From Akkermansiaceae bacterium (GTDB lineage: Bacteria > Verrucomicrobiota > Verrucomicrobiia > Verrucomicrobiales > Akkermansiaceae), in contig JAPKCM010000030.1 of assembly GCA_028822935.1 (NCBI GenBank), forward strand, positions 1 through 55,483: 55,483 nt of DNA, in the 5' to 3' direction. Made by a program: the position numbers and the translations under genes. The notes under the pieces were generated by a model. It ran no database searches. It had not been told where the DNA came from and saw only the letters and a list, made by a program, of their open reading frames with translations. Below, in pieces: positions 11,698 to 36,611 of the stretch (the stretch's first letter is position 1; every line of letters starts with the position of its first letter).

Positions 11698-14600
11698 TTA
11701 CTCCAGCGCGGCTTTTGCTCGGATAAACTGTCTTGGCTGGGTGCTAAATGGCGTTGCACTGCGGAAGCGAAGGGTCTCTGAGCCGTCGCCATTGGCGAAG
11801 GATTGCATAAAGATTGGAGTCTCTAACCAATTGCCTAAATCATCGCTGATCTCAGCGACGACAGACACGTCATCAGCTCCGGCGCGGCGGCGAATATCGA
11901 TGACCAAATAATCATCAAGGACCGTTGCAACTTCAACTGGCATTACTTCACCGACTGGTAAAATGCCGCCTGACGGCGCATTCGGATCGCCGCCGAGAAC
12001 GTATTCGAGAATCGCTTTGATGCCGTCCATGTCGTCGTCGGAGTCATCAGATGGCACGCCGTTGGCTGCTTTCCAGGCGACGTAACTTATGGCATCGGTC
12101 GATCCCGGATTACCGCCGACCTGCGAGCTATTGCGCCAGCTCAATGCATTTGCCGGATCAGGATTACTGGCTGGCTTGATCAACACGAGGCTGTAGCCAT
12201 CGCCGTCCGGGCTGTCAGGCCATGGTGGCGTGTCGTTATAGAAGAAGTCATGCACGGTTGCCGAATTGGCATCGAGTAGAATAACTTGCTCGCCGTCGTT
12301 GCTAAAGCTGCCACCAAAAACCCCCGCTACCGAGAGTCCCATACCGTAGCGGAATTCAAAAGCGGCCTGGTTATTGACTAAAAGAACACGCTCACCTGGA
12401 GCAACAACACGGAACGGATTATCTTCGGTAAAGGTAAACACCACCCCGAGCGAAAACTGCACATTGGCGAGGTCGATGTGGCTCGCACCGATATTTGTCA
12501 GCTCGACGTATTCGAACTCGCTGCGCTGAAGGAAACCCGCGTTGATCTCAGCAGCGCTTGGCGATGCCGGACGGTAGTGGATTTCCGAAACGACGAGATT
12601 TGAAGCAGAAGCGGGCGCGGTATCAACGATGAAGGTTGCCTTGGTCAGGGCACTCCACTCGCCATTGTCCAAAACCCGGGCTTCGATGGTATTGATTCCC
12701 GGTTGAGTGAGTAAAAGTGGATTTGGTGTCGATACCATCTCACCCGTCAATCTCAGATCGAAGCTGATGTCGCTGGAGCCTGCATTTGCCTGATGAATTT
12801 CGACAGCCAGCGTGTTGTTCCCTTCGACCAGAGCTGTGGTGGGAATCGAAAAGGTAAAGAAGGTTGTTTCATCAGCTCCACCAGCGGTTTGGTTCGCATA
12901 GGTTTGGTAAGTAATGGTGCCGGCAGGCATCGCTGTCCGGGCAATCTCACTTCCATTCAAATAGATGACCGCTCCGTCATCGCGCAGCACTTCAAGATTC
13001 AGACCGGTGAATCCGGAAGCACCCGTGACGGTGAAGTCTTTCCGGAAGTAGGTGGTGGCATACTTGTCCCCACTGTCCGGGCCAAAGCTGAGCTCGGGGT
13101 TTTGTCCGTTGCCATAGCCGAGAACTGCTGTGCCGGTAGACCATCCGTTGTCGTTGAAAGAAGGCTGACGCCAAGCGGTTCCCTGATTGCTGCCATTGTC
13201 GAGATACTTCCAGGTTGATCCCGCCGTAACCAGCGACTGCAAGCTGGAATTTCCTTGGAACATTTGCGAGCCGGACGTGATTGCTCCGCCCTGCTGACGA
13301 GGGTCGTCGCCATTAACGCGATAGTAAATCGCTCCCGGCCCACCACTAATCAAGATTTGCTGGCTGCTGGAAATGTAACCGCCGTGTTGACTGTATGCTG
13401 GCGGATTCATCGAAGGATACCAGTCGGCTGCGCGAAGCTGGCTGATCATTGTTGGAACGCGTCCGGTGATGAAATTCTCGATGTTTTGGATCGCGCTCAG
13501 CCAGTTGTTTCGGTTGCGTGTGCCGGAGTCTCCCCAACGTGCGGAGTGCGCGATCACTGCGCGATCGATTTGGTCAACGCGCCGCTGTAGACGAGCCAAA
13601 CCATTGGGGTCGGTCATCAAACCATCATTGTAACAAAGCTCCGCGATACGATCTGAGAATTCCAGCATGTATTCGAGATTTTCATCCGCGAGTGTCTGGT
13701 GAAGAACGTGCGGATTGAAGTCAGAGAAATTGGTGGTAGTGCCTTTGTAAGGCGTGACCATATTGTTGTCGCCCGTTCCCAAGGAGTGCTCGGAATCGTG
13801 CTCGAAGAACTTAAATCCATCTGGATTCACGCGGTCATAGATGCCGAAGTAGTTGTTTGGCCTTGTGCCAGTGTAACGAGAACCCGGGCCATCACGATCA
13901 CCCGTGTAGTAGGTCATGATCATGTAATCGATGAGATTCTCCGCATCAAGAAGGCGCTCGAAAGAAGGATTGATTGTTCCGTCGCTGTTCTTTCCCTGAG
14001 CTTCAAAGTAGGAACTTGTGGTGGTAAATCCAGCGAGCCATTTATCGAATAATCGCTCGTATGCCTGACTATTTCCGTCGGTGACATCACCGAAGGATTT
14101 GACGACATCGTAGTCCTGTTCTGTTCCGCCAAAATAGGTCTCAGCGTAATTCGCCTCCGCTCTTTCATCCGTCTGGGTCATGCCCCAGTAGACGCCGTTT
14201 AAATAGAGATGATACCAGCGCCCGCGAGTATACTGGTGGCCCATCTCGCCCTGCAGATCACGAGACCAGGTGTCGCGCGCAAATGAGTTCTGCCCCTGTC
14301 CGCCCCACGCCCATGAATAGTTTTGCGGGCCGCGCAGGTCGAATTTGTCAAAGTTGTCCGCTCCCTCATCACCGAACAGTTTATAATTGAGACGACCGTT
14401 GCCATAGTCTCCCCGGAAGAAAATTCGGAACGAGTGTTTCGGATTGCTGGTGCTCCGTGAAAAACCACCGCGAATACGCAATCCGCACGGCGACTGGAAA
14501 CCGGTTGCGTTTCCGTCCGGATCGACCCATCCCGGAGGATGAATCAACTCGATAGATGCTTCCCTTTCCCAGGCAAGACCGCGGCTTCCCGGATTCGAAT

Positions 14601-16650
14601 AAATTCCGCTGCTTCCTGTCAGTCCGTCCTGATTCAACGAAATCGAAATCGTCGGGATCGATTGCAACGCTTCCGTGGTACTCGCAACGCCGCCGAGATC
14701 CGGATTGCTATGATTGACCACGCCGAAGGCCATATTATAGCGATTGTATACCTGATTGTTCACCGGCCCAGTTGGCCATCCGGGAGGCGCTGTGGCAGAC
14801 TGTTGGATGACATCGTCGACGTAGAGATAGGTGTGTGAGTCGATATCGGTCTGATCAAAGCCGAACTTAAAAGCAGCGGCGCGCAGGACGGTCGTCGTCG
14901 TCACACTGATCGGCGCAGAATAAACCATGCCGTTTGTTTCTGTCGGCTTCGAGCCATCGGTGGTGTAGCGAATTTCCGCGCCGACGGTTGTCGTGGTGAT
15001 CGCGACTGACTGAGGCGTTGTGTAAAACCCGCGAGCCGGCGTAAAAATCGTATCCTCGACTTTTCCCTGACTCGATGGAGCGCTGTTGATTCCCTCCGGT
15101 GTGGGATCATCAAAATAGAACGGATCGCCCGCCTGCAGTCCCCCACCGGTGAGTTCCGGGAGAACGAGGAAGGAGTCGTCCGCCGCAGAAACATTCAGCC
15201 CGTGGATCGCCAGAACGTTACTGGATCCATTGATCAAAAGTCCGGTATTTGAGGTCAGATTAAACGATTGTGGAATCAGAGCGTCGGAGGTCGAGGCCCG
15301 GGCTGCCGTCGCCGATGCGTCCCACGCAGGTGTGCCCGTGATGGCATTTGCGGATGCCACGCGTGTTCCATTCAAATAGGCGACAAAGCCGTCATTATAA
15401 CGCATGCTCAATGAAAGTGATTCCAGCGCATTGATGTCATTGACGGTAAAAGGAATGCGAAGGTAGGCGCTGGATCGAACTCCCAGCATCGACGAGCTAA
15501 TATCAGTGTCGATCACTCCTCCTCCAGCCGAGCCATCCGGAGTTGTCAGAACTTGAAGACCACCGGCTGCCGTATCTCCGATCAATCGCATGCTGGAATC
15601 GAACGAGCCGAAGTTGCCAGGAGCCGCGAACACTTCCATTTCAGCACCACCACCGGCCTCCCAGTAGAGTGCCTCGATCGCGTGGGCGCCTGCCGACAAA
15701 GAAATCGTCCCAACACTCGTTCGCGCTCCGTGATTCGTATCATCCACCATGACATTCACCCCGGCGACCCGAATGCGTCCGCCGTCGTCCGAGTTCATGC
15801 CGAATGTCCACGTTCCAGCCGTTGGGATAATGATCGTTCCCGTTGCCAGGATCGCGTAGTTGTCTCCACCGCCTCCGGGGAAAACCTGATTACCAGTGGA
15901 AAATTGCCCATCACCACCCGTGTCGAGAAAGTTAATAATCTGCGTGATGACCGTCGTATCAGAAACGATGCCGCTTCCGGCCAAGAGCGATTCCGAGGTC
16001 GCGATGCTATTGATCGTGCCGCTGCTGTGGACATCGCGAACCGTGAAGCCCGGCACTTCCAGGCCGAACCCCAGCCCGGTGTTTCCGGTGCTCCAGTCCG
16101 TGGGCGTGAAACCCGCCTGGGTCCATGATGTCCCTAAAGTTCCGTTCGAAGGAATCAGATAAGTCGATGAGACGCCTTCTGAAATCAGAGGAACGCCGCT
16201 GAATGCCAGTCCAAAGGAACGGTCAGGATCTTGCGCAGAATATTCTGGTGAGAATTCGTTGGCGATTGTCGTTCCGCCAGGCTCCACCAACGCCAAGTAT
16301 TCACCACCGGCCGAAAGCGAAAAACTCGTGTGTAATTCGTTTTCAGGAACTTGTCGGTTTTTTCCAGAAGCAAAAACAACGAGGAATCCACCAGGAGCGA
16401 TTGTCGCTGGCGGAAAGGTCCACTTTGTCAGGTTGGTCGCATTGTCTGTCAGCGTCCAGCCATCCAAATCGACAGCAGCGGCATCAGGATTGTGAATCTC
16501 TATCCAGTCCGGAAAATCGCCATCTTCATCCGCGAGGGTTTCTGTGTTGTCCGCCATAAACTCCGTAATAAGAGGCGTGGCATTTGCAGAAAGAAAGGAG
16601 AAGCCGAGGATAAATGCCATCAAGAGATGGAGGAAGTATTTAGGAGGCAT
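11698..16650 (-). CDS. giant secreted LTD / PA14 / CotH-kinase surface protein
   Basis: 1650 residues with a signal peptide (1-24, ending SANA). Approximate order: lamin-tail domain 26-150 (ITEFMADN, DWIEIHN); PA14-like beta-sandwich 200-365 (TFGMNSDDGGRIRVAG); jelly-roll 395-500; chitobiase C-terminal-like domain 530-615 (IRYTTDGSKPTE); CotH kinase-like domain 665-1080 (YLNGVYWGMTQTDERAEANY, FKFFEHDSEHSL); second jelly-roll 1150-1300 (DDGAVIYLNGSEIART); second lamin-tail domain 1350-1510; and a short acidic Asp-rich stretch DDSDDDMDGI near 1535 before the tail. It is the second CotH/LTD giant in 13 kb and shares module types, not order, with the plus-strand protein at 3340. Likely role: extracellular binding or modification; target unknown. 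Confidence 0.9.
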   Translation of the reverse strand: MPPKYFLHLLMAFILGFSFLSANATPLITEFMADNTETLADEDGDFPDWIEIHNPDAAAVDLDGWTLTDNATNLTKWTFPPATIAPGGFLVVFASGKNRQVPENELHTSFSLSAGGEYLALVEPGGTTIANEFSPEYSAQDPDRSFGLAFSGVPLISEGVSSTYLIPSNGTLGTSWTQAGFTPTDWSTGNTGLGFGLEVPGFTVRDVHSSGTINSIATSESLLAGSGIVSDTTVITQIINFLDTGGDGQFSTGNQVFPGGGGDNYAILATGTIIIPTAGTWTFGMNSDDGGRIRVAGVNVMVDDTNHGARTSVGTISLSAGAHAIEALYWEAGGGAEMEVFAAPGNFGSFDSSMRLIGDTAAGGLQVLTTPDGSAGGGVIDTDISSSMLGVRSSAYLRIPFTVNDINALESLSLSMRYNDGFVAYLNGTRVASANAITGTPAWDASATAARASTSDALIPQSFNLTSNTGLLINGSSNVLAIHGLNVSAADDSFLVLPELTGGGLQAGDPFYFDDPTPEGINSAPSSQGKVEDTIFTPARGFYTTPQSVAITTTTVGAEIRYTTDGSKPTETNGMVYSAPISVTTTTVLRAAAFKFGFDQTDIDSHTYLYVDDVIQQSATAPPGWPTGPVNNQVYNRYNMAFGVVNHSNPDLGGVASTTEALQSIPTISISLNQDGLTGSSGIYSNPGSRGLAWEREASIELIHPPGWVDPDGNATGFQSPCGLRIRGGFSRSTSNPKHSFRIFFRGDYGNGRLNYKLFGDEGADNFDKFDLRGPQNYSWAWGGQGQNSFARDTWSRDLQGEMGHQYTRGRWYHLYLNGVYWGMTQTDERAEANYAETYFGGTEQDYDVVKSFGDVTDGNSQAYERLFDKWLAGFTTTSSYFEAQGKNSDGTINPSFERLLDAENLIDYMIMTYYTGDRDGPGSRYTGTRPNNYFGIYDRVNPDGFKFFEHDSEHSLGTGDNNMVTPYKGTTTNFSDFNPHVLHQTLADENLEYMLEFSDRIAELCYNDGLMTDPNGLARLQRRVDQIDRAVIAHSARWGDSGTRNRNNWLSAIQNIENFITGRVPTMISQLRAADWYPSMNPPAYSQHGGYISSSQQILISGGPGAIYYRVNGDDPRQQGGAITSGSQMFQGNSSLQSLVTAGSTWKYLDNGSNQGTAWRQPSFNDNGWSTGTAVLGYGNGQNPELSFGPDSGDKYATTYFRKDFTVTGASGFTGLNLEVLRDDGAVIYLNGSEIARTAMPAGTITYQTYANQTAGGADETTFFTFSIPTTALVEGNNTLAVEIHQANAGSSDISFDLRLTGEMVSTPNPLLLTQPGINTIEARVLDNGEWSALTKATFIVDTAPASASNLVVSEIHYRPASPSAAEINAGFLQRSEFEYVELTNIGASHIDLANVQFSLGVVFTFTEDNPFRVVAPGERVLLVNNQAAFEFRYGMGLSVAGVFGGSFSNDGEQVILLDANSATVHDFFYNDTPPWPDSPDGDGYSLVLIKPASNPDPANALSWRNSSQVGGNPGSTDAISYVAWKAANGVPSDDSDDDMDGIKAILEYVLGGDPNAPSGGILPVGEVMPVEVATVLDDYLVIDIRRRAGADDVSVVAEISDDLGNWLETPIFMQSFANGDGSETLRFRSATPFSTQPRQFIRAKAALE

Positions 16651-20482: not shown

Positions 20483-23401
20483 TCACTCGGCGGCAAGAAA
20501 ACGACGGAGCTCTGACACCGTCGGCGCCCCCGCACCTGCCCAAAGAATCTCTCCTCGCTGGTTCGTTACGACAGATGTGGGATACGGCAGCTCAGCGACT
20601 CCGATCCAACGCTGAAGAAACACTTCTGCTTTTTTACGGTCCAACCTCGAGAGGTCCGTCTGTAAAGTATACGGGAGATCGTGCTTATTCTGATAAGCGA
20701 CTAGTGCTTCGCGGCCTTCTTTTTCATCGAGAGGAAAGCCACGGAATTCCACGCCAAGCCCCTGCGTCATCGCTTTGAGCTGCTCGAAATGAGGACGGTA
20801 ACGAGCGCAAGCTGGGCACCACGTGGCCATTCCCTTCCAAACCGTCAAGCGAGCTTTTGATTGATACCCGAGCGGGAAGGTCGCTTTTCCCAGCAAAGAA
20901 TTCTGTTTTGATTCCACGTCCCGGCGGTAGGGTTTCCGTTCCTCGCCACCCCGCTCGTCGACGGTCAACCACTCTCCATGCTTCACCTTGGTAACCGTTG
21001 ATTTTCTTCCAGACGGCCACCTTACGATCAGCTCATCAATCTCTTCCCAATCGCCTAATCCCACGATCATCACAGCGCTATTTTGAGAACCGTAGCCCTG
21101 GCCGCAGCGGTGCTCTCTCTCGATCATCTCTTCTCCTTTCCTAATTTCAATGCGAGTACCGTATCCATCACGATTACTCCAATCTGATGCGGTGGCAGTG
21201 CGATTACCTCCCCTGAAAGAAAGGGCGATAAAGTTACCGCTCCGATCTTCATCACTCATTTCATTGTGAAACAGCCGTGTCAGCGGGTTCATCGCATTTA
21301 CCGAAACGATGTCACTCCACCCGTCCCGGTCATAATCGAAGACGGCAAATGCCCGTCCATCAGATTCATCGTCCAAGCCAGAAAGGCCGGACTGGTCTGA
21401 AAAGTTCGAACCAGTCCCGTCATTTAAGTAAAGCTTGTTTCGTTCGTGACCACTCAGAGAGTGGACCCGAAGTTTACCGTCAACCATCTCATCACCAGCT
21501 TCGACACGGGCGTCCAGTAAGTCATCGACTCTCCCTGTTTGAGGGTCGCGATCCCAAGCTTCGGATTCACGGAGTTTGCCTCCGATATTTTCATCTTGTC
21601 GCACGACCGTGCGCCAGAGATTACTTCACAAATCAATATCCGATTCGAAAGAACGAGGGGCGGTAAAATAACCACTCAAGACGTGAATATCGAGATCCCG
21701 GTCGTTATCGATATCAACAAATTGGCCACCCCAGGACCAACCAGATCTGGCAACAGGGATCATCGACCCTCCATATCCGGCAAGCTGTTCGAACTTCCCG
21801 CCATTCTGGCGGTAGAGAAAATTACCGGACGCCGCCTCGACAAAACGGGGATCAACCTCTGCGAAATCGCCTAAAACCCGTTGCCCTGCTTTGCTAAACA
21901 TATTGGTAACAAAAAGATCATCTCTACCGTCCCCATCGTAGTCCCCCCAACACGCTCCCATCCCAAAACCCATCCGGTCCAAGCCAGTTTGAGAAGCAAT
22001 ATCGACGAACCCCTCCTTTCCATCATTGCGAAAAAGGTGGTCTACCGCCCAGTCGTTTGCCACCGCAAGATCGGGATCTCCATCCTCATCAAAATCCCCC
22101 CATGTCGCTTGTAGGGAATTTTTCCAGCTACTGATTGAGGAGTCAGAATGAACTCTTTCGAACTGACCATTCCCCATATTCTTAAGAAGCCAATTAGGAG
22201 GACCCGTTTGATTCAGGTACCCCCCATGAGATTCTTGACGAGATTCCCGATACTTTTTGCGGAAGACCCGTGCCTCTTCAGCCGTCAGGTATTTTGAACA
22301 CCAATCTGTCCCTTCCTCTCCCCCAAACCCAGGAATGCTCCCGGTCAGATTCCCCCGACGATAGGTCGTGACATAAAGATCAAGGAGACCGTCTCCGTCA
22401 TAATCTGCCGCAGCGAGAGAAGTCGCTAAAAAAGGAAGGTCCGTCTTTTTTTGTTCGACGACCCGAAACCCACCTTCGACATTCTCGAGATAAGTCATTC
22501 GCTCAATACTTCTTCCGAGCATGAGATCTGGATCCCCATCATTGTCAAAATCCGCAAATATTCCGCAGGTGGAATTGCCCGGCAACGAAAGCTCAAGCGC
22601 AGAAGCCTTTTCCACAAAAGTCCCGTCACCTTGATTGTGCAGGAACAAATTTTTTCCCAGACGGACCATGATATAAACATCGTCCCACCCGTCGTTATCA
22701 ACGTCGACCACTGAGACCGCAGGCTTAAAGCCCATCGCAATGGGTTCAAAGTCTTGCGTGGGGGCCATTTTTTTATTAGTACTGTAATGGTAATTCAAGG
22801 CCCTTCGATGTTCGGATTGAGTGAGCAGTCGACGTGTCGGGAGATCAGGCAAAGCCTCGACCAAACGATCGCGAAAATATTTCCGAGATATTTCCGGCTT
22901 ATCGACCTCCTGGATCAAGGTCCAATCGCTCATTTCATATCGCCCCTCTTTTCTGGACCATTGGACCCGATAAGAAGAGGAGCTCTCCTTCCATTTTTTG
23001 CTCTGAGTCCGAACCACTGCATGAAATGCGACTTCAGCCACATAATCGTCCTGATTCTCAGACAGAAACTCTCCCTTCACAATCCTCAGAGAGGCGCTAT
23101 CAAAAAAATTCACTCCGTCGGTCCACACGGAAGCTAATTCTTTCAGTGAATCTGGAGTTGGTTCGCTGAAGTTCTTGAGATCCCGGGTAATTCCTTTGAG
23201 CTCCTTCGTGAGTTCCAGGATAAGTTCTTCACTCGCCACAAGCCCAGGAATTCGCCCGGAGATCTGATCACCCGAGAGATCCTCGCGGTTCCTTTCTCTT
23301 AAAAAGAAAAAGGTCAACCCGCTCACGATGATCGTGGAGGCAATGATTGAAACACCCAATTTCATCATGATTAAGAAAGCAAATTTAGATTTTCGCCACA
23401 A
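20483..23401 (-). CDS. FG-GAP/ASPIC protein with thioredoxin-like domain, one in-frame TGA (possible selenoprotein)
   Basis: One continuous frame of 972 codons broken only by TGA at codon 592 (21626-21628). N-terminal membrane anchor at about 12-32 (SIIASTIIVSGLTFFFL), then a linker. FG-GAP/VCBS repeats with Ca-loop motifs run from about 220 to 660 (DVDNDGWDDVY, DFDNDGDPDLM, DYDGDGLLDLY, DFDEDGDPDLA). An ASPIC/UnbV-type region follows (SGHERNKLYLN, DYDRDGWSD, VRWPSG). A redoxin domain at about 835-972 has the CPAC motif (C862, C865 in TWCPACARY). Without read-through the products are 591 and up to 373 residues (from GTG 21604), splitting the propeller. Intact frames on both sides argue against old decay. 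Options: selenocysteine insertion, recent nonsense mutation or sequence error. Location: periplasm or surface. Confidence 0.75.
21600..21628 (-). promoter_or_regulatory. in-frame TGA with SECIS-like hairpin
   Basis: The TGA is followed by 17 nt up to a GGTC loop closed by a perfect 5-bp stem CGCAC/GTGCG (21609-21613 and 21600-21604). As I recall the bacterial SECIS model, it asks for an upper stem of a few base pairs, a small apical loop with G among its first two bases, and a UGA-to-loop distance of roughly 16-37 nt. All are met, and the E. coli fdhF loop also carries GGUC at 18 nt. A GC-rich stem could still arise by chance. Confidence 0.4.
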
Positions 23402-33430: not shown

Positions 33431-36196
33431 TTACTCCGTCACGTGGATCGTGTTCCAGATTTGGCTCACGATCTCGCCACCGCCCTCGGTCTCGAGATCA
33501 ATGTTGATCTCCATCATGTGGACCGGGCGAAGGTCATTCACCTTGAGAAAGACCGATTTACCATCCGGCAGGAGCTTCGCTGACTCGACCGTGAACCTGG
33601 TGCGGCCTTTCGGCGGGTCATCCGAGCTGCGATGTCCGGTTTGATACTCCGAAGTTCCGTAGGCGTGGGTCCAGCGCAGGTCGCTTCCTGACAGCGCATA
33701 GCTATCCGGTTCTTCTGCCAACGCCTTGTCGAGTTTCTCCGTGAAGCCGATCACGATTCCACCGTCACGAACTTCGAGGGCGCTGGGTATCTTCACCTTC
33801 CGTCCGGTGTAGCGGACGCGATCGAGTCCTCCTTCGCGAGCCGCATTGGTCTGCCAACCTCTGAGTCCGGCGACATAGAGTTGACCGTCCCTCTTGTTGA
33901 ATCGGCCGCGCATCGCGCTGGAGGTTGGGCGCACTGGAATTTTGACGACTCCGCCCTGCATGATGTCTCCACACTTTTGCTTGAGAACGAGGTAGAGTGC
34001 GCTCTGTCCGTAGCTGAGGTGCAGCATCTCTCCCTGGAACGGTCCCCATCTCTTGCTGGTGACCCACACCTGGCCGCCGTTCGAGTTATCGACGCTCTTG
34101 GGGAGCCAGGCCAGCGGCACGGGAGCCTCGCCCGGGTCGAGGTGTTTGTCCCGTTTTCCGCGACGCTGGGCAACGGTCGTGGTGGTATTCATCTTGGCGT
34201 AGTTTGCGGCCGCATCGACCACTCCAAGGAATTCGCCCTTGTCGATCCAGTGGATCGGGCAGCGCGGCACGAAGGTACCCTCATTGTCCCCGCAGGTGAT
34301 CTGGCCGGTGGGGCTCACTCCAATTCCGTTGGGTGCTCGCAGACCGGTGGCGTAGCGCTCGATCTCCGATCCATCCTTCGAGACGCGAATGATCGAGCCG
34401 TGATGGCGGCCCATGCGACTGAAGCTCAGCCCGCCCCCGAGCACGGGGCTGCCATAGGCGAAGTAGAAGTCCCCGTTCGGAGCCCTCTGCAGATCGAAGC
34501 AGAACTCATGAAAGCTGGTGGTGAGCTCCCAGTCGTTGTTGAAGTTCTCGTGGTAATCCGCCTCATCGTCACCATTGAGGTCATGGTAGCGCGTGATTTG
34601 GTCGTCGCCCACCGTGTAGATGACATCGTCGACGATGGTGAGGCCGAGCGTTTCGTGGCCTCCAGCCGCAAAGCGTTTCCACTGCAGGTTCTCAAGTTTC
34701 TCGTCGATGCCACTCACGATCCAAACGTCGCCGTCCCAGGTGCAGACAGCCGCGCGACTCGGATCACTGGTGAAGAAGTCGAAGCCCCCAATCCGCATCT
34801 TCATCCCGTAGGGATTCTCGTAGGGGAGGGTGAGGCGATCGAGCAGGTAGGCAGAGACGCCATCATCTTGAGCGATTGTTCCTTTGGTCGTGACGGTCTC
34901 CGGAAAGCGGCTGGGGCCGCCCTTCGTGTAGAGGGTGAGATCCTCGAGATTTGTTGATATCACCCCGGTGCCGTAGGCGATCTTAAGGTGAGTTCTCCCG
35001 GCGGGTATCTGCAACACGATGCCGTTCCTCCCGATTGTTGGCATGAGGTCTGCTCCGAATACCCGGATTTTCGGCGCGCCGTCGACCTTGGCCAAAACCA
35101 TCGTGGCGGGCCTCGAAAACGTGCCCTGGATCGTGCGCGTGATCACGCCATTCTCGAGGGCCGGCATTTCGAGGATGGAGTCTTTTCCGACGGTGTAGCA
35201 CAACACCACCTTGTCGTGATGCGCGTAGAGCCCACTATAATGTGCCTGTGTTTTCGGCAAGGGACCCAGTGGCGGATAGGCGCCATCTTCCGCGATCCGC
35301 GGCTCATGGAAGCTACCGTCCTGGTTGGCCCAGCCCGGCGCGGCGGCATTCGTGAAGAGCGCCTCGCCCACGAACAAGGGGAAGACATCGTTACCGCCGC
35401 TTATGGGACCGCCTTTCAGCTCCAAGCCGCCCTTCGTCCACCCCGCCGCCATACGCATGGTATCCGCGTCGAAGACGATGCAGGCGCTCCCTTCTTCGTT
35501 GAGGCGGATGATCTGTCCCCGGAAGACGAGGTTCTCGCCCTTCTCGTCCTGGCCCACCCGCAGGGCATTGCCTGCGAAGCTTCCGAGTCGGGCCGGAAAC
35601 ATCCCAGGATCGTGAACCGGAAGGGGCGGAGTCTGCCTCGGCGCTTTCGCAAAGGCCGCCGGATCCCACTTGAGCGCCTTCAGACTCTTCGGATCGTGGG
35701 AGAAAATCAAAGCGGGGATTGGTTCCTCTTTTCTTCCGGGACGGATCCAACTCGCAATACACCCGGCCCCGACTCCGCCTTCCTGGTAGAGGATCGTGAC
35801 TCGATGGGATCCGGGGAGCAGGGTGATCGAGCCGCTCTTCTTTGTCATGCTGTGCGGCCCCCAGTTTTCAACCACGAGCTCGCCGTCAATCGAAAGTCGC
35901 GATCCGTCGTCGGAATTCGTGAGGAACTTGTAATCGCCTTCTGTCGCGATGTTGAGAGTGCCGCTCCAACGCACCATGAACTGATCGGAAAGCTTTGATC
36001 CGTAAAACTCACCCGACGTTTCGGGAAAGTTCACCTGCTTGTCGATGCGCACCAGCCAGGGCTGTAGGCCGGTGGGCACTTCGTATTCATCGCCCAGTTT
36101 TTCGGGGAGCTTGAAATACTCGGCGATTAAACCAGGCGCACCGAAGGCACTTACAGGGAAGGAAACTGATAACAAGGTAACGAAGAGGCGATTCAT
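33431..36196 (-). CDS. secreted PA14 / DUF6797-like / beta-propeller protein
   Basis: 921 residues from ATG 36194-36196, giving a normal signal peptide (MNRLFVTLLSVSFPVSAFG). The open frame runs to 36499, but that part belongs to an older relic. PA14 domain at about 20-155 (LIAEYF, FLTNSDDGSRLSIDGELVVE, IASWIRP). The next block (about 190-460) resembles the DUF6797-type region of verrucomicrobial proteins. From about 470 to 820 a six-bladed propeller like PVC dehydrogenases or sorbosone-type enzymes is suggested (GLTIVDDVIYTVGDDQITR, YATGLRAPNGIGVSPTG, GDNEGTFVPRCPIHW). No heme motif is present. Likely an extracytoplasmic sugar- or glycan-acting protein; activity unproven. Confidence 0.85.
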   Translation of the reverse strand: MNRLFVTLLSVSFPVSAFGAPGLIAEYFKLPEKLGDEYEVPTGLQPWLVRIDKQVNFPETSGEFYGSKLSDQFMVRWSGTLNIATEGDYKFLTNSDDGSRLSIDGELVVENWGPHSMTKKSGSITLLPGSHRVTILYQEGGVGAGCIASWIRPGRKEEPIPALIFSHDPKSLKALKWDPAAFAKAPRQTPPLPVHDPGMFPARLGSFAGNALRVGQDEKGENLVFRGQIIRLNEEGSACIVFDADTMRMAAGWTKGGLELKGGPISGGNDVFPLFVGEALFTNAAAPGWANQDGSFHEPRIAEDGAYPPLGPLPKTQAHYSGLYAHHDKVVLCYTVGKDSILEMPALENGVITRTIQGTFSRPATMVLAKVDGAPKIRVFGADLMPTIGRNGIVLQIPAGRTHLKIAYGTGVISTNLEDLTLYTKGGPSRFPETVTTKGTIAQDDGVSAYLLDRLTLPYENPYGMKMRIGGFDFFTSDPSRAAVCTWDGDVWIVSGIDEKLENLQWKRFAAGGHETLGLTIVDDVIYTVGDDQITRYHDLNGDDEADYHENFNNDWELTTSFHEFCFDLQRAPNGDFYFAYGSPVLGGGLSFSRMGRHHGSIIRVSKDGSEIERYATGLRAPNGIGVSPTGQITCGDNEGTFVPRCPIHWIDKGEFLGVVDAAANYAKMNTTTTVAQRRGKRDKHLDPGEAPVPLAWLPKSVDNSNGGQVWVTSKRWGPFQGEMLHLSYGQSALYLVLKQKCGDIMQGGVVKIPVRPTSSAMRGRFNKRDGQLYVAGLRGWQTNAAREGGLDRVRYTGRKVKIPSALEVRDGGIVIGFTEKLDKALAEEPDSYALSGSDLRWTHAYGTSEYQTGHRSSDDPPKGRTRFTVESAKLLPDGKSVFLKVNDLRPVHMMEINIDLETEGGGEIVSQIWNTIHVTE

Positions 36197-36299
36197 GGAC
36201 GGAAATTTATAACTTAGAATCGTAATAATCCTTCCCGCAATACCAAGAATTATTTTGCTACCCTTTTGCAAAAAAGGCATCCTTTTCCCATCGCTAAGC

Positions 36300-36611
36300 T
36301 TCTGCCATTCCTGCTGGAACAGCCTCGAAGTATTTCTGATTGGAAAGGTGACCGTCGCGATGCCATTTGACGAGGTGATGATGTTGGCACCATCAATGGA
36401 ACCCATGGTAGTGGACTGGAGGAAGCACGGTGGTGGCATCCGTAAAATCAAGGTCCTCAGATTGCGTGATCTGGTGTCCCGTATTTGGAGCCCCCACAAA
36501 TGACAGAGTGCAGAATCACGATTCAGGGTCGCAGGTCAGGGAAACCACCTGGAGAGCCTCGCTTGCCTGGCCTGCCAAAACCCCGACCCACACGGCGCTC
36601 ATGAGAACCAT
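36300..36611 (-). pseudogene. relic of a secreted protein: signal peptide joined to C-terminal tail
   Basis: From ATG 36609-36611 (or 36602) the frame gives a signal-like MVLMSAVWVGVLAGQASEA. It passes directly into VVSLTCDPES, a TGA, and FCTLSFVGAPN plus DLDFTDATTV: the conserved C-terminal module of secreted proteins in this phylum. After VHYHGF the reading moves to another frame with DGANIITSSNGIATVTF and NTSRLF. The whole middle of the protein is gone, and one stop and one frameshift remain. The rest of 36197-36674 shows promoter-like AT-rich sequence near 36200-36250 only. Confidence 0.55.

Follow-up and report, generated by a model that had tools for sequence, protein, structure and literature searches.

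The window analysed here is a stretch of 55,483 nucleotides, contig C10 of the draft genome of an Akkermansiaceae bacterium (4.59 Mb, 156 contigs, completeness 96.1%, contamination 0.64%). A 972-codon frame on its minus strand contains a single internal stop, a TGA, and ends with a TGA stop of its own (Table 1). Translation gives SDIDL*SNLWRTV around the internal stop, as stated in the original prediction, which had proposed that this lone codon is read as selenocysteine (Sec). The open reading frame (ORF) list of the window splits the gene at this position. Translation probably starts at an ATG near 23368 and not at the TTG at 23401. Elsewhere in the window, positions 11698-16650 of the minus strand encode a protein of 1650 residues in which Lamin Tail, CotH kinase, Fn3-associated and PA14 domains are found.

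Table 1 Features of the candidate selenoprotein gene in the window
Feature	Position	Strand	Remarks
Whole predicted selenoprotein gene	20483..23401	-	972 codons, then a terminal TGA; orthologs share length and frame
Hydrophobic N-terminal helix, putative signal peptide or membrane anchor	23297..23401	-	Sequence; helix 4-35 in the model, low confidence
CRTAC1-like beta-propeller of FG-GAP repeats	21263..22723 (approximate limits)	-	Pfam, fold model; putative Sec in an inter-repeat loop
TGA predicted to be read as selenocysteine, residue 592 of P0001	21626..21628	-	Frame and homolog alignments
SECIS-type hairpin CGCAC-GGTC-GTGCG	21600..21613	-	Apical loop 21605-21608; nt 13-26 after the TGA
UnbV_ASPIC domain, after the Sec codon	20972..21166	-	Pfam
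ResA/TlpA-like thioredoxin domain, C-terminal	20543..20827	-	Pfam, NCBIfam, sequence and fold match to solved structures
CPAC (CxxC) redox motif of the thioredoxin domain	20807..20818	-	Translation, family alignment

Pfam identifies FG-GAP_3, FG-GAP and UnbV_ASPIC domains in the protein, with FG-GAP_3 and UnbV_ASPIC over cut-off. Among solved structures, CRTAC1 (PDB 9etn) is the best sequence match (2.8e-25), and this murine protein is also the best fold match (1.6e-24, TM by target 0.68, rmsd 6.5). Built from 16 sequences, the model has a mean pLDDT of 67 and shows a CRTAC1-like propeller. Most of residues 579-653 are below pLDDT 50, as is the loop that carries the TGA-encoded residue, so that no active-site geometry is claimed. 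Compared with CRTAC1 and with bacterial ASPIC/UnbV FG-GAP proteins, the window protein adds the putative Sec in this low-confidence loop and a thioredoxin domain, which is usually fused in the family.

The C-terminal domain matches AhpC-TSA at 24.9 bits, just below the Pfam cut-off of 26. None of the NCBIfam thioredoxin models reaches its cut-off (ResA, 19.9 and 17.8 against 170 bits). Structures of ResA, TlpA and StoA match this domain, and sequence, fold and family alignment all point to a thioredoxin fold with the CxxC motif common to these proteins. It differs from them in being fused behind a propeller with a putative Sec and in staying far below the NCBIfam ResA cut-off. In the same genome, FG-GAP and UnbV_ASPIC are over cut-offs in all eight TGA paralogs given, of the other ten, and Redoxin in three of these eight. 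CxxC is found at the thioredoxin-domain position in 9 of the 11 Sec proteins of the genome, some of which have TPR repeats behind it. A lipobox-like segment in two of the other ten, together with several hydrophobic N-termini, suggests that the Sec proteins are probably exported.

The shorter open flank of TGA 21626-21628 is 380 codons, the longest among the 54 TGAs of the window whose two flanks are each open for at least 60 codons. The second longest, 346 codons, belongs to a TGA at 34955 of the plus strand, antisense to the ORF at 33431-36499; open flanks alone would therefore not single out the codon. That TGA ends other genes of the window had been raised against the original prediction. 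This is the case for 6 of the 23 ORFs checked, out of 33 listed, the present gene included, and TGA is therefore no general sense codon.

A search of the draft genome for the selenocysteine machinery, proposed as a check on the codon, recovered all its components on four different contigs: selA (485.6), selB (278.3; cut-off 242.25), selD (386.5) and tRNA-Sec (53.9 bits; cut-off 47). ARAGORN also calls a tRNA-SeC(tca). The selD of this genome (L260, G000:C53:6429-7358) has an in-frame TGA in its motif GGUASKLG and is probably a selenoprotein gene itself. The Rfam tRNA-Sec model taken alone is unspecific, since 5 of 14 control genomes also exceeded its cut-off; for selB this was so in two of the 14, for selA in one and for selD in two. 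We then compared 58 genomes, the source genome and 57 relatives, half of which have TGA members of the family. selB is over cut-off in 26/29 genomes with TGA members versus 11/29 without (p 4e-5), and full-length tRNA-Sec is found in 23/29 versus 10/29. At least one of the two is present in 28/29 versus 11/29. Among the three TGA genomes without selB over cut-off, only G007 (88% complete) also has no tRNA-Sec.

A genome-wide reassignment of TGA to Trp or Gly would make the codon an ordinary sense codon, and the frame is indeed open when TGA is read as a residue. We rejected it as extremely improbable. Beyond the six ORFs that end at TGA, the codon occurs once and at one conserved column in nearly every family member (L332, described below, has three), it is accompanied by a covarying hairpin, and tRNA-Sec and selA, selB and selD are all present.

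The region around the Sec codon was matched in 32 of the 58 genomes. All 14 orthologs at 80-100% identity, that of the source genome included, have exactly one TGA; the closest named one (L047, 97% identity) is from an Akkermansiaceae MAG. Paralog rows among the matches listed have one TGA each. In total, 229 loci were examined, of which 165 gave 166 rows over the site (L047 contains two members) and 139 distinct sequences. The other 64 loci are distant or FG-GAP-only matches, a cut gene (L061) and a gap in L121. The site codon is TGA in 136 of the 139 distinct sequences and TGC in three, so that the UGA is conserved and aligned with Cys in some members. Such pooled ratios of TGA to non-TGA are not frequencies, because both kinds of region were preselected: 100 regions came from a list whose rows all had TGA, and 14 non-TGA regions were picked on purpose. 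The fairest count is that of the source genome, where 13 of 40 matches cover the site, 11 with TGA and two with TGC. The homolog alignment suggested with the original prediction thus gives TGA or, in one distant clade of three, Cys. These Cys forms (L046, L102 and L103, DYC-x-x-[FY]-W) come from the same order, two of them from the source genome. Two Cys homologs of that genome, L258 on C133 (DYCSQFW) and L259 on C143 (DYCSHYW), have neither the hairpin nor a thioredoxin domain.

Counted by rows with one TGA, there are 17 copies in a genome of the same genus (G026) and 10 in one of the same order (G056). Among 288 genomes drawn evenly from the phylum, with up to 10 candidates scored per genome, only the source genome had TGA rows. 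Within Verrucomicrobiota the family seems concentrated in few lineages. One locus of the source genome (L249, C8:26644-29046) carries two different Sec members tail to tail on opposite strands, and coordinates indicate a like pair in G004, G010, G016, G023, G025 and G026. Further Sec paralogs lie about 4-10 kb from the ortholog of the window gene in L047 (near 10293), G004:C4, G025:C135 and G008:C157, and at this distance from each other in G014:C35. In the window, no Sec paralog lies beside the gene among the matches listed.

The sequences before and after the TGA are under similar selection. In nine of ten ortholog pairs dN/dS is 0.10-0.27 before the codon versus 0.11-0.25 after it; dS is saturated in the tenth. 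A pseudogene, or a TGA created by sequencing or assembly error, would look the same as a lone stop in an open frame if a single genome were considered. There is next to no chance of either, and we rejected both: the same TGA is seen in many separate genomes, in paralogs and in three phyla, and purifying selection after the codon equals that before it. Sequencing error is very unlikely in view of the many separate assemblies that show the same TGA. A real stop with partial read-through would give a short propeller protein as the main product and extend only part of it, possibly to form a switch that depends on selenium. Termination and Sec insertion are competing events in bacteria, and the region before the TGA is under selection as well, as such a switch would have it. 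We consider it quite unlikely, given that the region after the TGA is equally constrained and that sense codons replace the TGA in some homologs. For these two reasons, the long product is the selected one; a second, short product may exist beside it.

Downstream of the TGA, the sequence reads AGTAATCTCTGG-CGCAC-GGTC-GTGCG. The predicted hairpin with its GGTC loop is confirmed, but not the spacing of 17 nt given for its stem: the stem starts 12 nt after the TGA, and it is the apical loop that lies at 17 nt. The original prediction likened this loop to that of E. coli fdhF. In the bacterial SECIS (bSECIS) model, as described in excerpts from PMC13188914, the stem has at least 4 bp and the loop, of 3-9 nt with a G in its first two positions, is 16-37 nt from the UGA; the loop of the window hairpin falls inside this range.

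The caution that the window stem could be chance was justified. A stem of equal strength is found in about 44% of synonymous recodings that keep the same peptide (p ~0.44; row L025 represented the window gene together with its close orthologs in this trial), and the peptide WRTVVR favours a stem of this type. We therefore rejected the window hairpin taken alone as proof. It becomes significant because it is conserved and covaries across the family. With the published geometry and G-T pairs counted as half, the stem score is at least 4 in 71 of 73 non-redundant TGA sequences, the exceptions being L095 and L230. The mean is 5.95 versus 3.70 for synonymous recodings. Singly, 27 of the 73 reach p 0.05; the combined p is 2e-22, with kinship ignored.

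Gap-free alignments reveal two registers of the hairpin. With loop GGTCG, mostly in WR[QR]V types (44 rows), 97.3% of cells are paired and 26 cells are changed on both sides. With loop GGTC, mostly in W[RS][TAS]V types (26 rows), the values are 94.2% and 7 cells. The conserved pairing that had been asked for is thus seen as compensatory changes in both registers. Covariation is 0.347 versus 0.120 in the 44 rows and 0.263 versus 0.154 in the 26 rows, and none of 500 shuffles is as high in either case. Structures slid along the alignments score far worse than the hairpin register. Measures that count pairs or pair types are unexceptional, with 71 and 164 of 500 shuffles as high for the 44 rows and 77 and 77 for the 26 rows. 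Alignment A3 is without four non-redundant TGA rows of another register or codon pattern (L222, L230, L236 and L242, all among the 73 scored above), and L246 was kept in alignment A2 despite its poor fit to the register. The family combines the published bSECIS geometry with covariation. An Rfam search at the site gave nothing useful, only one chance microRNA match.

TGA and hairpin are also found in a Planctomycetaceae MAG (L060) and in a Gemmatimonadetes MAG (L062), with selB over cut-off in both genomes. In Planctomycetota, the phylum of L060, the region was matched in 224 of 392 genomes (up to 7 candidates scored per genome). Among the matches listed, 14 rows have no stop, one has three TGAs and the rest have one. 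Fifty loci were read, 20 of them hand-chosen, including the 14 non-TGA ones on purpose: 36 have TGA and 14 another codon (E 3, A 3, N 3, R 2, Q 2, H 1), with no Cys. Two of the 36 TGA rows repeat genes already represented, L317 that of L275 and L269 that of L060. The row with three in-frame TGAs (L332, G357:C78) has one at the Sec site and two more 21 and 25 codons downstream, in the stretch ALUAEAUGHL; this represents either several selenocysteines or an assembly problem.

The putative hairpin accompanies the TGA across the family. A stem of at least 4.5 is at the right place in 35/36 Planctomycetota TGA rows and 127/136 first-set TGA rows versus 1/17 non-TGA rows, and GGTC is at the loop in 28/36, 121/136 and 0/17, respectively. 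For the stem in Planctomycetota TGA rows versus non-TGA rows, p is 7e-9, kinship ignored. The pattern that was to count against selenocysteine, unrelated residues at the site and no conserved hairpin, is limited to 13 of the 14 fetched non-TGA Planctomycetota homologs, in which no hairpin of at least 4.5 is present, so that hairpin and TGA go together. Conservation of the TGA, the covarying hairpin, the Sec machinery and selection downstream together uphold the proposed reading. From these sequence comparisons, we estimate a probability of about 95% that TGA 21626-21628 is read as selenocysteine.

The CPAC motif, to which the original prediction had drawn attention, appears to be linked to this codon. 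A thioredoxin domain was found in 55 of 72 Sec members and CxxC in 53 of these 55; the other two have C..S and S..C. The 53 are in part related, with no fewer than ten orthologs of the window gene among them. No fused domain was seen in the remaining 17, in some cases because the tail is cut. Among 14 non-Sec members (L318-L331), the eight with E, A or Q keep the thioredoxin domain and none of them has CxxC; for three of the eight the alignment is gapped at the motif, and the printed stretches are without CxxC. The six with N, R or H showed no domain, and the two Cys members scanned have none. Sec members with C..C served to train the C-terminal domain model, which favours Sec members in these counts. 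A tree of 68 rows places the E/A/Q group within the Sec clade, with supports of only 81-91. CxxC states were coded by hand, with L046 assumed to have none. Two independent pairs, both in the same direction, show co-loss, too few for significance. From its place inside the Sec clade, the E/A/Q group appears to have given up both Sec and CxxC, possibly as a single event, and this co-loss leads us to propose a redox relay between the two.

Alternatively, Sec could be real but bind a metal or play a structural role as a selenol, without any relay to thioredoxin. FG-GAP repeats are of the calcium-binding type, the replacements H, E, N and Q are possible ligands, and the 17 Sec members in which no fused domain was seen would fit such a role. 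We find it somewhat unlikely: A and R also replace Sec, and a bare metal site would not explain why E/A/Q members lost CxxC yet keep the thioredoxin domain. In the 16-row alignment A4, no invariant column offers a partner Cys for Sec, the only invariant Cys being the Sec column itself.

In the mechanism that we propose, SelB with Sec-tRNA(Sec) would recode the UGA, guided by the hairpin that occupies nt 13-26 downstream of it. The product would be a probably exported protein of ca 960 residues, with the propeller bearing Sec in D-L-U-S-x-x-W-R, followed by UnbV_ASPIC and the ResA/TlpA-like thioredoxin domain. The selenol on the propeller may react with an oxidant or a disulfide outside the cytoplasm and be reset by the fused thioredoxin domain; members without this domain would need a separate thioredoxin. 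We see an even chance that Sec acts as the catalytic selenol in an oxidoreductase outside the cytoplasm and that the fused CxxC domain recycles it.

Bacterial selenoproteins of the SelB/bSECIS type (FdhA, SelD and others) share with the window gene an in-frame UGA, a hairpin 16-37 nt downstream with a G in its apical loop, and a genome with sel genes and tRNA-Sec (excerpts from PMC13188914). Table 1 of that review holds 119 selenoprotein families by the review's own count, a few entries being unnamed hypothetical proteins. Unlike the window family, none of those named in the table is FG-GAP, VCBS, CRTAC1 or ASPIC, and these four terms are not mentioned in its whole text. Among the papers listed, titles and abstract openings on selenoproteins of Verrucomicrobia and Planctomycetes and on FG-GAP/CRTAC1/ASPIC proteins did not yield the family, nor did a word search of PMC9312934, PMC2398784 and PMC1088965 or excerpts from PMC12013277. 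It was not found in main-text excerpts from PMC4807772, on Planctomycetes, whose supplementary candidate list might hold such a gene. No NCBIfam model (June 2026) exceeds its cut-off in the Sec region of the proteins scanned; for one TPR-rich paralog this refers to the best 25 of 40 matches. The selenoprotein family is large and apparently undescribed, in the sense of not found rather than never described.

The analysis thus looks like adding a large unlisted selenoprotein family, built on an FG-GAP propeller, to those of bacteria, with many copies per genome and members in three phyla. Standard gene callers would be expected to cut these genes in two at the TGA. According to excerpts from a 2026 review, aerobic bacteria rarely keep selenoproteins (PMC13188914); the family bears on this rarity if these lineages are aerobic, as we infer. 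A Sec-thioredoxin relay outside the cytoplasm would be the first testable hint at the role of bacterial ASPIC proteins. At evenly balanced odds, Verrucomicrobiota, Planctomycetota and at least one Gemmatimonadota lineage would possess an unrecognised class of exported selenoenzymes, in which the selenol of a CRTAC1-like propeller is recycled by a fused thioredoxin domain. With up to 17 copies per genome, and liable to be annotated as truncated gene pairs, this class may account for the retention of selenocysteine in many of these lineages.
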